DNA from: Dichotomocladium elegans
Lineage: Eukaryota; Mucoromycota; Mucoromycetes; Mucorales; Lichtheimiaceae
Direction of reading: 5' to 3'
Length of the DNA: 64,000 nt
Assembly: GCA_025716815.1 (NCBI GenBank)
Contig: JAIXMN010000033.1
Location: 186,001 to 250,000 of the forward strand
In this document: positions 1-16,649 of the stretch, one piece after another
Numbering within the stretch: position 1 is the first letter of the stretch
How the letters are laid out: every line of letters begins with the position of its first letter
Made by a program: the position numbers and the translations under genes
Notes under the pieces: generated by a model
Told to the model about the DNA's origin: nothing
Database searches by the model: none
Seen by the model: only the letters and a program-made list of their open reading frames with translations

Positions 1-1902
1 GAAGTTTGGCTCTCCACGGTTAACAAAGCCGAACGCCGCACCCAAGGCGAAACTGCCCGCATCCGAGAACTCATTAATCGCCACAAGGATGAGTACCTTC
101 AGATATCCGGATACGACAGGCCTGCGTTCCCTTATTTCCAGCAATGTTCTTCTTACGAAGGCACCAAGATTTATACTGCTTACGTGAATAATGTCCACAT
201 GCGGTTCGGGCAACACCTTCGGCGTGTCATCAATGTCATCTTGAATCTTCGTCAGCGAAAAGCCGACCGCAAGCGAGAGTTAATCGCACAGGGCCTAAGC
301 CCCGATCAAGTACGCCAGGACCTTTATGAAACCATCACCCGGCATGCCACAGGATTCAAGCTAGCAATTGCCCGTCGAGGTGTTTTGAGGGAAGACATTC
401 ATGCCGAACCTGGATTTCTTCGGGAAGCATACGATATCCTACAGCCTGTCTTAAACGCTTACCCCCGAAACCACCAATTCCAACACCAGAGTATCTATTA
501 CGATGCCAAGGCCAATCCTATTAAGCATTTCAACGCCTTCTTCCAGCTTGCACGTGTTTGTCAACAGAACGGAATACGCAGATTCAACTGTTTTCCACTT
601 TGTCGCTCGTCGTCACCATGCTACATGGAGATCGATACGAAAATCCTTTGCTACCAATATCCTGGGCAGCAAAATGGAATCCCACACAAGCAATATGGAG
701 TACTGGAGACGGGTTGTAAACCTGAAATCAAGAGCTTTCAAACCCCCAAGAATGCTCCAATTCCGTGGGACTATTCACACTGACGGCGTCGGTGTTACTG
801 TGTTCAAGAAGACAAATGGCCTTCAATCGGGTTTCGGACAGAGATTTGGCACCCAGAGCGAAGATATCGAGTACGTCACCCCACGATAGTCCGGAACGAA
901 GACTATAGAGGACAATGGGTCACCATTGATCCTGGCAGAAGGGACCTGTTGTATTGCGTTCATGAGACCTCTTCACCCGACAACCACCAGACCTTCCGAT
1001 ATACAAAGCAGCTTCAAGATCATATACGCAAGACCAAACGGTACCGCAGACTCCGAGAACGACTCAAGTTAGAGCGACCCGAGGTCGCGTTGGCTGAGCA
1101 GAATCTATCCCAATTTCAAAGTCATACACTTTCCGTGCCCAACTACGACGGATACCTCGCCGCCAAGAACAGGGAATCTCTGTAGTTCTCAAGTCTTTCT
1201 ACGCGACAACCACCCGAACCCACAATTTCTTTTTCGAAAACTTGGCCTGTCAGCGTTTTACAAGAAGCAGCAAGCAGATGAAAAGCTTCTCGACTCTTTG
1301 AATGCGCAAGTTTGGCAGTAGGTCCGTTTTCGTGATGGGAAATTGGTCTGCGCGCCGCATACAAGGGATCACGAGCCTATCCGTGGTGTCGACTTCCGGC
1401 GGCTGTTGAAGAAGGAACAATTGCAATATTTATTTGATCGACGAGTACAAGACAAGCAAGTGCTGCCCCTGTATGTGACAATGAAAGCCTTGCTACCTTT
1501 AAAATGGTTCCTAATCCACGCCCATATCGACGACCCGACGATCTGTCATGGCCCTGCTACGGTATGAAGGACGGGCATGTTGTGTTCTATTTCCAAAAAA
1601 GATTTTAATATTTTGATGTTTTAATAGATGCACAAATCAAAACTGTACAGCAGGCATGGCAGAGGGTGGTGGTCAACCAAGGTTATGGAACCCGGGATCT
1701 GGCGGCGGCTCTCAACATGCATCATATCCTTCGGGAAGATGGTATCATCCCAGCAAGGTTCCAGAGAAGAAATGCTGCACAAGCGTCCGCAGCTGGTGGA
1801 AGACCACACTCACCTGAACCAGAGCAGCGCAGCGTGGGACCACGACGGGCAAGGCCAGGAAGGCCACGAGGTGCACGCTCTGGCGGGTCGAGACGACCGT
1901 AA
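1..1902 (+). pseudogene. Decayed Fanzor (eukaryotic TnpB/IS607-like RNA-guided nuclease), 5' end outside window
   Basis: Reading starts open at base 1, so the 5' end lies off the left edge. Family features appear in order: a conserved N-terminal block ending in CFPL and IDTKI (about 590-650, frame 1), then TDGVGV (frame 2, about 780-800), RuvC-I IDPGRRD (924-944, frame 1), VFVMGNWSA (about 1326-1350, frame 3), HEPIRG (frame 2), LIDEYKTSKCCPC with a zinc-knuckle CxxC-like pair (1434-1472, frame 3), and the RuvC-III-like block RDLAAALN (about 1694-1717, frame 1). The C-terminal tail is Arg/Pro-rich and stops at 1900-1902. At least six frame changes and several stops break the gene. Bases 1560-1627 have GT...AG ends and may be an old intron. 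Fanzors are known RNA-guided DNA endonucleases; this copy cannot encode a working one. The family call rests on motif order recognised by eye. Confidence 0.72.
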
Positions 1903-2062
1903 ACCCCAGCCAAGAATTTTCCGCGTCAGTTATCGCTGACGCACCCAGGATAACCACAGCCCTTCGGGCCAAGCCCCCTTCCTTTGGAAGGACGGTGGGT
2001 TGTAAGTCAACGGGATTGGAGAAGGCGTAATGTTTTCTGCTGACTAACAGGGTTTCATCCAT
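1903..2062 (+). ncRNA. Candidate omega-RNA-like structured 3' tail of the Fanzor element
   Basis: Directly after the Fanzor stop codon the DNA forms closely spaced perfect hairpins: GCGTCAG/CTGACGC (1923-1942), GCCC-TTC-GGGC (1959-1969), CCTTCC-TTT-GGAAGG (1977-1991) and GTTG-TAAGT-CAAC (1999-2011). TnpB and Fanzor elements are known to make their guide RNA from the 3' end of the gene and the adjacent right end, so the position fits. The hairpins are visible in the sequence; the RNA function is inferred. The stems look intact although the coding part is broken. Confidence 0.42.
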
Positions 2063-2229
2063 GGATGCGAAATCCTTTTACCTATTGATACGACAAATTT
2101 ATATAATTCAATGCGACGACATTTATTTTTGAAAATAAAGTATAAACATAGATGAGTAAGAGAGCAAGGGACTCGTTGAACGGACAGGGATGTGTATTGT
2201 AGAGAGGTAAAAATGTAGGAAGGGAATGT

Positions 2230-5200
2230 TTATGGGCTCTGTGAACCGATCTTGCCCCGTGCTTGCCTGTCAGCTTGGCGCTTGACAAGGTAATTGAGTT
2301 TGTCCATGACATCCTCAAGCTTTGCCTTTCGGTCCTGCAGGTCGAGGTGCTTCTGGACGGGTGGGTTCTCTCGGGCAAACTGCTGGATCTGTTGGCGGTT
2401 CATCTGGTATACCAAGCGATTGTCAACCTCGCGGGGGAATTGAAAGAAGAACTCGTTCAGGAGCTCGACCTGGATAAACATTACAGCCTGTTTCAACCTG
2501 TAAGTCATGGTTCAAAGAAAACACACTCCGTTATTACCGTGTACGTTAACTTCTCGGCAATCACATTGAGGAACGCTTCGGGACAATACTGCTTGTTCTC
2601 TGCAGATTTGCACTGTCTGCTCTTGAGGGCTGCAATACGGTACTTGAGGATCATCGATCGATCGCGCAGAAACAGCGCTTCCTTTGCCTTCTCGAGGATC
2701 TTGGGGTTGTAGAACGGCTTCACAATCTCTTCGTCACCCTCTCCAAAGATCTGCTCCTCTGTCGACCTGCCGCCCTCGTCCGCAATCTGCTGGAGCCGCA
2801 GCTGGCGGCGATCATCTTCTCGCTCCACATCGAGCAGGTACTTGATCGCACCCTTGAGCTTCTTTTTGCCAACTGCATTTTTTATCGAATTGGCCATTTG
2901 ATCACACATCTCAAGCTCCTTTTCGAGCAGCGCAATCGATCGTTTCACGCCCTCGCTCCATTCCATGTCTGTCACCTCGACCTGAATGCCTTCAGCTTCC
3001 TTTTCTCATGCAGGCCATTTTTCCCATGCTACTAACCTCGTACTTGTACGGCTTGATCGTATTCTCCACCTGATCACTCGTCGTCAAAAACTTGCTCCGC
3101 AAGATCTCGCCAGTAAAACTCAGGATCTGTTTGCGCGTCTCGGGATGGTATGAGAAGGGATCAGCATTCGCCAGGCGCTCCATGTTACTCATGAGAACAT
3201 CCACGACAAGCTGTGTCGTGGACCGGCCAATGCCGCTCTTTGTCAGCGCCGCAGACGCCAGATCAATCTTATAGAGCCAATAAAAATCGTCTACGGTCGC
3301 CTTTGGTAGCTCTGCGATCTTTGCATCGGACCAGTATTGTTCGGCACAGATGTCGAGGACGCGTTGCTCCAGCATGGTGCGGACCTCGTGGCGCACCTGA
3401 GGCTTGCCGAAGCGGTTTGAGAAATCCTTAAAATTATGCTTGAGCGAGTCGATCGTCTCGGCCACATAGGATTCAGCCGTAACGCGGCGGTCGTTGTACT
3501 GGACCTTGAACTGATACCGTGCTTCTTCGAGCTCCTGCTGGACTGCATCCACAATACCGTAGAGCGATCGACCCATGCTTTGCTCAAGCACATTCATCAG
3601 CTTGTGGCGCAGGGTCGCAGTGCCGACCTGGATGTCGCGTTGGTTGTAGATGAGATGGTTCTGGAAAAAGTCCTCCTCATTCTTGATAAGTGCATTGGTC
3701 ATATTGCCTCCCGATCGCACATTATCGGGCGACCTGCACACAACACCAATGTAACCAAGATGAAGCGGATAGTCCGCGTTGCGAAGTACGGCAGCGCCTG
3801 CCTCGGGCGTCACAAGGTCCATCTTCGTGATTACACCAATCGTGCGCAGGCCGAGCGGATCGTTCTTGCGACTCGCACGGAGCGCGGGTGAGTTGGCAAG
3901 GTCGACGTTCGCAGCACACACTGCAAGAATAATGTTGGGCCCACGGATGTACTTCTCACAGAGTTCTTCGATCTTTTGTTTGAGCATCTCGGGTTGATTC
4001 TTGTTCGAGATCTGGATGTATCCCGGCAAGTCAATCAGCGTCAGATCAGGCACATTGGGCGAATAGATCTTCAGCTCAATGGGCTTTTCGGACACACACT
4101 CCGACTCGGGCACAGCCAAGTTCATGTCGATGAGCGTCTTTTGGACCTTCTTGAAGTCGCGCATCTTCCCCAGGCCGAGTTGAGGGAATTCGCCATACTC
4201 CTCGTCTTCCCCGGGCGTATGGATAAGCGTCAACTCAATCGGGCGTCGAGTCACCATGTTCGACCCTCTTTAGTACGCGCATGATTTAGCGAATCCCACA
4301 AAGACAAAGAGAAACACGTCTTGCTGACTGCGGCTCTTGCTCCTCTCGCCCTCCCTCCCCCCGAAACCCGCTCGCTCTCTCGCAGGATGATTCTTACTTT
4401 GGCAGAAATTCATGTCCGACGATGGCCTCCAACACCGAGCTCTTGCCGGAACTCTGAGAGCCGATGACGACAATGCTCGGGAGTTTGAGGGTTTCGTTAT
4501 GATCGATCGATAATAGAATGCTGCGAATCTCAATCAGCTTCTTGGTGAGCATCATGAGCTGCTCGTCCTGGTGTCCACCGCTATTCGCCACGCCTTTCTT
4601 CTTTTTCGTCTTTGGGATTTCCTGCTCGTCTTCGGTCTCGCTCAGAAACGCAGCTCCCGCCGCCGCTGCGGCGGCCGCTGCGGCCGCGTTAGGATCACTT
4701 CCTCCGCCCCCGCCGCTGTTCTTGTTGCCTCCCTGCTTTTCTCCCTCATCTTTTGCAGCCTCGGCGCTGTCAAATTTGTGCGTCGTCGAATGCGGCTCTT
4801 CGAGAGGCCTGTTGCTCGTCAACGACGCCAAAAGCCCCTTGACAGCATCGGGCACCTTGAGATGGATCTCCGGGATCGAAATATCAAGCTCTTCGGCTTG
4901 TTCCTGAAGAACACTAAACATCTTTTGTGCCTCTCGCACGCCGTCCATGACAAATGCCGTGCCCTTGTCCGTCCAATCTGTGCATGCGTTCATTGCAACC
5001 ACCCGCATGCACACACACGCCGGAGGGTAACAAAGGACCTGTTAGCAAACCATACAACCCATTATTCCTAAGCCCCAAAAGTCCTCTCCCCCCCCTCAAG
5101 AAAAAAGAAATGCACCTGATATCTTGTTGTTCGCTAGCGTCACACCAGCCACCGTTGTGCCTGCAATCAACGTAGGAACGCGAAGTCCAGAAAGCACCAT

Positions 5201-16519: not shown

Positions 16520-16581
16520 AAAAAGTTGCTCCGTAGAGCGATCCAACTCAGGAAGTTTAGTGTCATCCTTGTGCAGGGGCC

Positions 16582-16613
<32 letters not shown>

Positions 16614-16649
16614 AGAAGTGACAGAGGTCCGAAGACTTGTCGCTCGAAC
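16520..16649 (-). ncRNA. U6: U6 spliceosomal snRNA
   Basis: The minus strand carries the near-invariant U6 core: AAAATTGGAACG, the ACAGAGA box, GATTAGCATGGCCCC with the AGC triad, and TGCACAAGGATGACAC of the internal stem-loop. A UUCG-capped 5' stem (AGTCTTCGGACC) precedes it. The 5' end is placed at the G starting GTTCG, as in yeast U6, but may be up to about 8 nt further in. The RNA ends at a run of nine T (16516-16524 on the plus strand as A), the Pol III terminator, preceded by a GCTC-TACG-GAGC hairpin. No intron interrupts the conserved core, unlike fission yeast U6. It catalyses splicing together with U2 and U5. Confidence 0.95.

Follow-up and report, generated by a model that had tools for sequence, protein, structure and literature searches.

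A probably recently inactivated copy of a multicopy Fanzor1 element with a guide-RNA-like tail in the fungus Dichotomocladium elegans

A 64,000-nucleotide stretch of the Dichotomocladium elegans genome (GenBank assembly GCA_025716815.1, contig JAIXMN010000033.1, positions 186,001 to 250,000 of the forward strand; here C50:186001-250000 and, at its full length, the window) opens inside a Fanzor1 element. This locus is very probably a recently dead copy of a multicopy, transposon-derived element whose broken nuclease frame is followed, from about 20 nt past its stop, by hairpins that resemble part of a guide RNA and would act as one by the mechanism set out below. The element occupies C50:184339-188140 (3.8 kb), and window positions 1-2140 (plus strand, as are all features described here unless noted) hold its right-hand 56%. 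Its left edge, C50:184339, lies 1.66 kb outside the window, and its right edge is window position 2140, with the right TA at 2141-2142. A preliminary description of this DNA had reported a decayed Fanzor at positions 1-2062. The decayed Fanzor is confirmed, in that an intact copy finds Fanzor when used as a protein query and the window frame is broken by 12 frameshifting insertions or deletions (indels); the element really extends beyond the reported bounds on both sides.

The element is identified as encoding Fanzor1 by the homology of an intact sister copy (L012) to characterized proteins. In a search of the Protein Data Bank (PDB), L012 matched Fanzor1 of Parasitella parasitica (E = 1.3e-119), a genus that we take to belong probably to the fungal order of the host, and Fanzor1 of Spizellomyces punctatus (E = 1.7e-43); entries 9cf0 and 8gkh matched, and no other distinct PDB sequence did so up to E = 10. 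A collection of protein sequences listed 115 relatives, the named ones fungal, with identities to the query Fanzor of at most 51% among those listed. The segments DPGRRDLLYC, DEYKTSKCCPVC, VDEYKTS, CPVC with C-x4-C, and WNRDLAAALNM align in L012 and four relatives, the second cysteine pair being missing from the gene model of one of them (P0001). We presume that these motifs supply the RuvC acidic residues and the zinc finger of the nuclease. Pfam matched none of the five pieces of the window copy's own protein and gave only weak, sub-threshold matches for the intact copy, among which PF26935, listed for relatives, was not reported.

The Fanzor gene comprises at least two exons. Coding begins some 246 bases to the left of the window, so the window opens in exon 1 (positions 1-1561, 11 indels, recognized by homology through the intact sister copy), which is followed by a putative spliceosomal intron of 66 nt (1562-1627, GTATGA...AATAG) and by exon 2 (1628-1902, three indels) with the second zinc-finger half, the third RuvC motif, and a basic C terminus. 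The intron, which frame continuity and the homologues point to, measures 69 nt in the young copy L012 and is common to intact copies; splicing it out yields LLRC-x4-C and WNRDLAAALNM, aligned with the relatives. The preliminary description had counted at least six frame changes. Indels are indeed many, but one apparent change is this intron, and a reading of all of them as mutations is rejected for that one. The spliced frame of L012 is 709 codons long and is open in 12 of the 20 copies fetched (the window copy being one of the 20), which confirms that the same genome holds intact copies; one of the remaining eight, L014, is neither counted as open nor shown to be broken, its intron having been missed by the motif search. 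Protein matches across the 39.4-Mb genome, for which 70 of 863 candidates were scored, ran through residues 1-634 of exon 1 uninterrupted by a stop in at least 16 of 79 cases. Pooled over 17 copies, the ratio of nonsynonymous to synonymous substitution rates (dN/dS) is 0.24.

The tail behind this gene is a putative guide RNA (omega RNA), a well-supported reading that turns on its first stem-loop, SL1. At 1923-1942, directly after TTTCC, the arms GCGTCAG (1923-1929) and CTGACGC (1936-1942) form seven base pairs around the loop TTATCG. According to Xu et al. 2024 (PMC11423790), the SL1 of all three solved Fanzor1 RNAs has seven base pairs and contacts the RuvC and TNB domains, the segment from SL1 to the guide varies between species, and known Fanzor1 guide RNAs are 75-150 nt long. 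It is because SL1 matches these RNAs in place and size that we name the tail a guide-RNA tail. The stretch 1916-2025 folds at -44.7 kcal/mol (z = -2.91), which 3 of 200 shuffles equaled. SL1 recurs in three Fanzor subfamilies of the genome, each time behind a TTTCC-like leader and with a nearly invariant loop, while its stem reads GCGTCAG/CTGACGC in family 1 (that of the window copy), GTGTCGG/CCGGCAC in family 2, and G[GA]CCCTG/CAGG[GA]TT in family 3. Protein identity to L012 is 51-58% for family 2 and 56-58%, over an 89-residue piece, for family 3. The hairpins that follow SL1 are not common to families 2 and 3. At 1957-1976, around CCCTTCGGG, are second, overlapping small hairpins (arms 1959-1962/1966-1969 or 1966-1969/1973-1976), altered in the window copy by one substitution. 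The hairpin CCTTCC-TTT-GGAAGG at 1977-1991 (arms 1977-1982/1986-1991) is absent from family 2, and family 3 has a different hairpin in its place; the small hairpin GTTG-TAAGT-CAAC at 1999-2011 (arms 1999-2002/2008-2011), which overlaps a GTAAGT, is likewise absent from family 2. Four perfect hairpins had been described after the stop. They are present except that the second is changed, and a function for all four is unsupported, only the first being common to the three subfamilies.

Covariation in the SL1 stem was assessed with the pattern TTTCC-7-TTATCG-7, allowing 2 and 1 mismatches and requiring at least six pairs, on each strand of the loci fetched (505,594 strand-bases). The scan returned 60 places, 19 of them distinct, all in the tails of Fanzor genes or of nuclease-less ghost elements judging by position. 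Over the 19 distinct rows, 127 of 133 cells are paired (95.5%), a percentage that the six-pair requirement inflates, so that the covariation counts weigh more. Both-sided changes occur at four of the seven pairs, and the covariation score is 0.662 compared to 0.282 in shuffled alignments (0 of 500 reached it) and to 0.044-0.120 when the partner was slid by one to three columns. Changed cells across 38 family-1 tails number 6 of 760 (0.79%) in SL1, 27 of 2,238 (1.21%) in the hairpin part behind it, 94 of 4,061 (2.31%) in the 107 nt that begin with GTAAGT, and 11 of 684 (1.61%) in the terminal hairpin. Genome-wide, the SL1 pattern (27 positions, at most three mismatches) occurs 145 times, and its reversed control not once. 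The earlier suggestion of a guide-RNA-like tail just after the Fanzor stop is therefore supported: the tail is shared by other copies, and its first stem shows compensatory changes and has seven pairs, as in the solved RNAs.

The edges of the element were placed by comparing the window copy with 19 further fetched copies, ends and flanks being taken from the 17 copies with both ends. TA, a candidate target duplication, stands at both edges in 17 of 17 family-1 copies where both ends were found, and in all 17 a second TA precedes the left one, which gives TATA and leaves the left register ambiguous by two bases. The first element bases are altered in two of these copies. A candidate inverted terminal repeat, short and imperfect, is CACCATTTTTCAAAAT / CTTTATTTTCAAAAAT as judged by eye. 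The right terminus (2122-2140) is a self-complementary TTTATTTT-TG-AAAATAAA followed by G; at 21 bases, TA included, it has 418 genome matches with at most two mismatches, compared to one for the reversed control. Set beside the 145 SL1 matches at three mismatches, this means that most such ends lack SL1 at that stringency. Short near-repeats just left of 2122, and in the corresponding zone of other copies, cause the length of family-1 tails to vary from 220 to 270 nt. A self-search of the genome with the first 2,100 bases of the window, in which 40 of 319 candidates were scored and copy counts are lower bounds, found at least 38 places covering at least 2,038 of these bases (at least 37 besides the window) and two more covering about 1,575. 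Identity to L012 is 98-99.5% for most fetched copies and lowest for L016 (95.3%); the window copy is about 94.5% identical to other copies across the main stretch.

Homology indicates that the element derives from a Tc1/mariner-type (DDE) transposon whose transposase was truncated while Fanzor1 and the tail were kept. Its left 600 bases or so are homologous (73-86%) to the start of a transposase gene with a 475-aa open frame (DDE_3, E = 1.8e-30; L059 and L060, 99.5% alike over 2.3 kb). That gene shares its left end with the element, which itself retains transposase remnants only. A right end of this transposase partner was sought and not found, and a convergent unit at C57 gave no inverted second end. 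At two family-2 loci, L067 and L068, a broken transposase runs to about residues 397 and 376, with a Fanzor gene behind it (read in L067, placed by coordinates in L068); the likely ancestor thus had transposase, Fanzor, and tail in a row. An open frame upstream with a helix-turn-helix motif, considered as an extra Fanzor exon, was rejected, as it is the truncated transposase start. All eight of the family-2, ghost, and transposase elements in which a left end was seen have CATA before it. CATA has also been known as the target-adjacent motif (TAM) of the Spizellomyces Fanzor1, SpuFz1. By analogy, left edges would predict TAMs of TATA for family 1 and CATA for family 2. Xu et al. (PMC11423790) give CATA and TTAA for GtFz1 and SpuFz1, respectively, and ATN for Parasitella Fanzor1 (PpFz1). 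At C57:1660083-1664635 (L059, L079, L032), a Fanzor of 52% identity with a 609-aa open frame is convergent with an intact 475-aa DDE transposase gene within about 1 kb. Both this transposase and the 3' end of the Fanzor are found again at C44 (99.5% alike), which suggests that the two were mobilized or copied as a pair. Two family-3 tails (L073 and L074, C112:214510 and C112:228350) lie 14 kb apart and are alike in the 700 bases compared. They share a truncated end joined to the same other sequence and are therefore probably a local duplication.

Decay of the window copy was measured against the majority of 17 other copies. Exon 1 carries 11 indels, 10 of them frameshifting, and exon 2 carries three, two of them frameshifting, which accounts for the 12 frameshifts in the coding part inside the window; five stops fall within the exon-1 match, and the first in-frame stop is at codon 342. 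The dN/dS of the window copy is 0.31 against L012 and 0.27-0.57 against six other copies, so part of its divergence arose under selection. The preliminary description had offered two accounts of an intact tail beside a dead nuclease, either mobilization or use in trans by intact copies, or simply recent decay. Exon 1 differs by substitution at 2.61% of positions, exon 2 at 1.77%, and the tail at 2.93%, with two substitutions (1.96%) and no indels in the 102-base hairpin part. Special preservation of the tail at this locus is accordingly rejected, its rate being equal to that of the exons, and recent decay appears the better of the two explanations for hairpins that are still intact in a dead copy. 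Other parts of the copy are more divergent: the transposase remnant reaches 10.7%, the left end 6.5%, and the intron 14% (8 of 57 bases), but the remaining upstream region stays at 2.7%. This unevenness suggests a mosaic or an older or separate lineage. At C50:184339-185755 the window copy also retains a stretch of transposase remnant lost from L012.

Some SL1 tails stand apart from any nuclease gene. When 108 of the 145 SL1 places were examined, a match to the Fanzor C terminus lay within 1.6 kb upstream at 80 and was absent at 28 (150 of 323 candidates were scored in the C-terminal search); the window copy is among the 28 as a false negative, so true absences number at most 27. Six such loci were read (L061-L066), not at random, most having been chosen for a transposase remnant just upstream. 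In all six, one breakpoint links the 5' part of the transposase to the closing portion of Fanzor exon 2, with the tail behind it. With the breakpoint shared and the flanks different, these represent one nuclease-less element that multiplied and kept its tail. Both ends are present in L061, L063, and L066, which are thereby ghosts as defined by Saito et al. 2023 (ends and guide-RNA part without a nuclease gene). The right end is damaged in L062; L064 has an altered right end and no recognizable left end; and L065 lacks a recognizable left end and has one SL1 pair broken. The window copy itself, whose nuclease gene is present though broken, does not count as a ghost. In Spizellomyces, where 42 loci have a full or partial Fanzor gene, 134 ghosts were counted, and Saito et al. 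suggest that Fanzors may act in trans (PMC10432273).

We propose that in this family the tail is transcribed together with the Fanzor gene, that the Fanzor protein would bind the SL1 stem-loop, and that the guide would be taken from the DNA to the right of the element. The nuclease could then cut the matching site that lacks the insertion, favoring copying of the element, which would itself be moved by a transposase supplied from another copy. At the window locus the nuclease has been lost and the tail would be intact mainly because decay is recent; its transcript could possibly still be loaded by proteins made from intact copies.

Several observations weigh against this interpretation. The whole tail (1903-2144) folds unexceptionally (z = -1.37, 16 of 200 shuffles), and the SL1 pattern is unmatched in two further subfamilies (L032; L035 with L078). 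Shuffles reach two of the five covariation measures, the count of both-sided pairs (59 of 500) and the count of pair types (29 of 500), so those two are not strong; each both-sided difference that separates family 1 from family 2 may reflect a single event, the remaining covariation comes from family 3, and five of eight family-3 copies have one SL1 mismatch. SL1 starts 218 nt before the element end (in most young copies about 260 nt), whereas the known Fanzor1 guide RNAs measure 75-150 nt. A search for empty sites with the joined flanks of 13 of the 17 copies gave no clean one and led to one paralogous place, L080 (C35:677900-678500). Between its flanks lie about 50 nt that are missing at the L014 site (C112:374988-379035), so that it is not a clean empty site, and it suggests that the TTA left of L014 was present in the target before insertion; the 50-nt difference could be a target deletion on insertion or an older footprint. 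The hairpins could also be parts of a transposon end that serve transposase binding or transcript ending without any guide RNA, and a right terminus at 418 places, far above the 145 of SL1, does argue that the extreme end serves the transposon at large. We nevertheless hold this very unlikely for SL1, which lies inside the element behind the Fanzor gene, has seven pairs as in three solved Fanzor1 RNAs, and keeps its pairing through both-sided changes and its loop nearly invariant across three Fanzor subfamilies. If the tail is a guide RNA, that of the dead copy might be actively kept through use in trans, the locus being a guide source or a mobilized nonautonomous unit. Intact copies exist in this genome, up to 27 SL1 places lack an upstream Fanzor C terminus, nuclease-less elements have multiplied with their tail, and ghost loci are likewise described in Spizellomyces (PMC10432273). 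At the window locus, however, the dead exons are conserved as well as the tail, and the six ghosts were not chosen at random, with end or stem defects in L062, L064, and L065; active retention is rather unlikely here.

A further reading concerns how a scaffold this far from the edge could meet its guide: the sequence from GTAAGT (2002-2007) to the last AG of the element (2140) might be an intron whose splicing joins the SL1 scaffold to the flanking guide. GTAAGT, which resembles a 5' splice site, is kept in 36 of 38 family-1 tails and found in most family-2 tails, and family 3 has GTGAGA, so that such a motif follows the hairpins in all three families together with a branch-point-like CTGACTAAC, TGACTAAA, or CTGCTAAC. 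In the window copy CTGACTAAC lies at 2040-2048, with an AG at 2049-2050 and then none until 2139-2140. The AG-free run to the terminal AG is 130 nt in L012, 88 nt in the window copy, 108 nt in L029 (family 2), and 95 nt in L072 (family 3), with P values of 0.0037, 0.0046, 0.028, and 0.0029, respectively, in mononucleotide shuffles. GTAAGT changed in 2 of 228 cells, compared to 50 of 1,520 over the 40 nt that follow and 11 of 760 over the preceding 20 nt, and splicing would yield scaffolds of about 40-90 nt, inside the known range. Yet the pattern was noticed post hoc, and in family 1 the AG directly past the branch-like motif would make a 49-nt intron ending within the element. Among tails with a right end in which the motif search succeeded (it failed in 7 of 38, 3 of 12, and 0 of 8 for families 1, 2, and 3), an extra AG occurs in the zone in 2 of 31 of family 1 and 2 of 6 of family 3, compared to 0 of 7 of family 2; substitutions creating an AG there are not significantly fewer than expected (3 versus 5.3, P = 0.18). 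Four of six right ends outside the SL1 list also have long AG-free runs (107, 109, 127, and 129 nt; 17 and 76 nt in the other two), so that such a run may have been inherited along with the end itself, though these four resemble family-1 ends and may carry a diverged, unlisted SL1. Finally, AAG is a weak splice acceptor. We consider splicing unlikely to explain these motifs, and it is equally improbable that guide RNAs are made by splicing while ghosts and dead tails supply new guides to a shared Fanzor pool. A recently dead Fanzor1 copy with a guide-RNA-like tail remains our preferred account of the locus.

Beyond the element, the window holds a gene for a mitochondrial dynamin of the Mgm1/Msp1 type (2230-4257, minus strand), whose apparent 3' end is about 90 bases from the right edge of the element; among its named relatives the best is one of Rhizopus microsporus (85%), and other relatives reach 91-93%. 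A U6 spliceosomal RNA (16532-16641, minus strand, 80.4 bits) was the only Rfam match in the window at gathering thresholds.

Fanzor1 in a Tc1/mariner-type setting is already known as a kind. SPu-1 of Spizellomyces punctatus, which encodes SpuFz1 (PMC3627910, PMC10432273), resembles the present element in its Fanzor1 protein, in TA at both edges, in a guide RNA running from the stop codon to the right end (here predicted), and in its many copies, some intact, beside nuclease-less ghosts that keep the RNA part. A conserved CA precedes its left repeat (PMC10432273), comparable to the CATA of the family-2, ghost, and transposase elements here; the family in the window has TATA instead. No transposase was found within SPu-1 repeats, whereas in D. 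elegans a transposase gene has the same left end and its remnants lie inside the elements. SPu-1 is also one single open reading frame, whereas the gene here has an intron, and its scaffold is 75 nt long, whereas SL1 here begins 218 nt from the end. The closest solved protein is that of P. parasitica (PDB 9cf0-9cf3; PMC11423790), with an SL1 of seven base pairs in both; it differs in an extra RuvC insertion domain (FRI), about 94 residues of which are unaligned here, and in an RNA of 75 nt. The Fanzor1-bearing Mariner elements PGv-1, PUl-1, and PUl-4 (PMC3627910) share the Tc1/mariner setting and TA edges and likewise occur with Fanzor and transposase or with Fanzor alone. In contrast to what is described for those, a single genome here presents a series that runs from a transposase gene through a broken transposase with Fanzor and a Fanzor bearing a short transposase remnant to ghosts, and it has a covarying tail stem as well. 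A search of the open-license literature found no paper combining Fanzor, Tc1, transposase, and fungi, and the host role of Fanzors was stated to be unknown in 2023 (PMC10432273). One fungus thus brings together intact and dead Fanzor1 copies, the dead ones with intact tails, nuclease-less elements that have replicated and keep the tail, a transposase with the same left end, and three covarying subfamilies. This combination makes two questions testable in one genome, namely, whether a Fanzor acts in trans for other elements and how a guide is attached about 200 nt or more from the element edge, and it makes D. elegans a good test bed for Fanzor biology.

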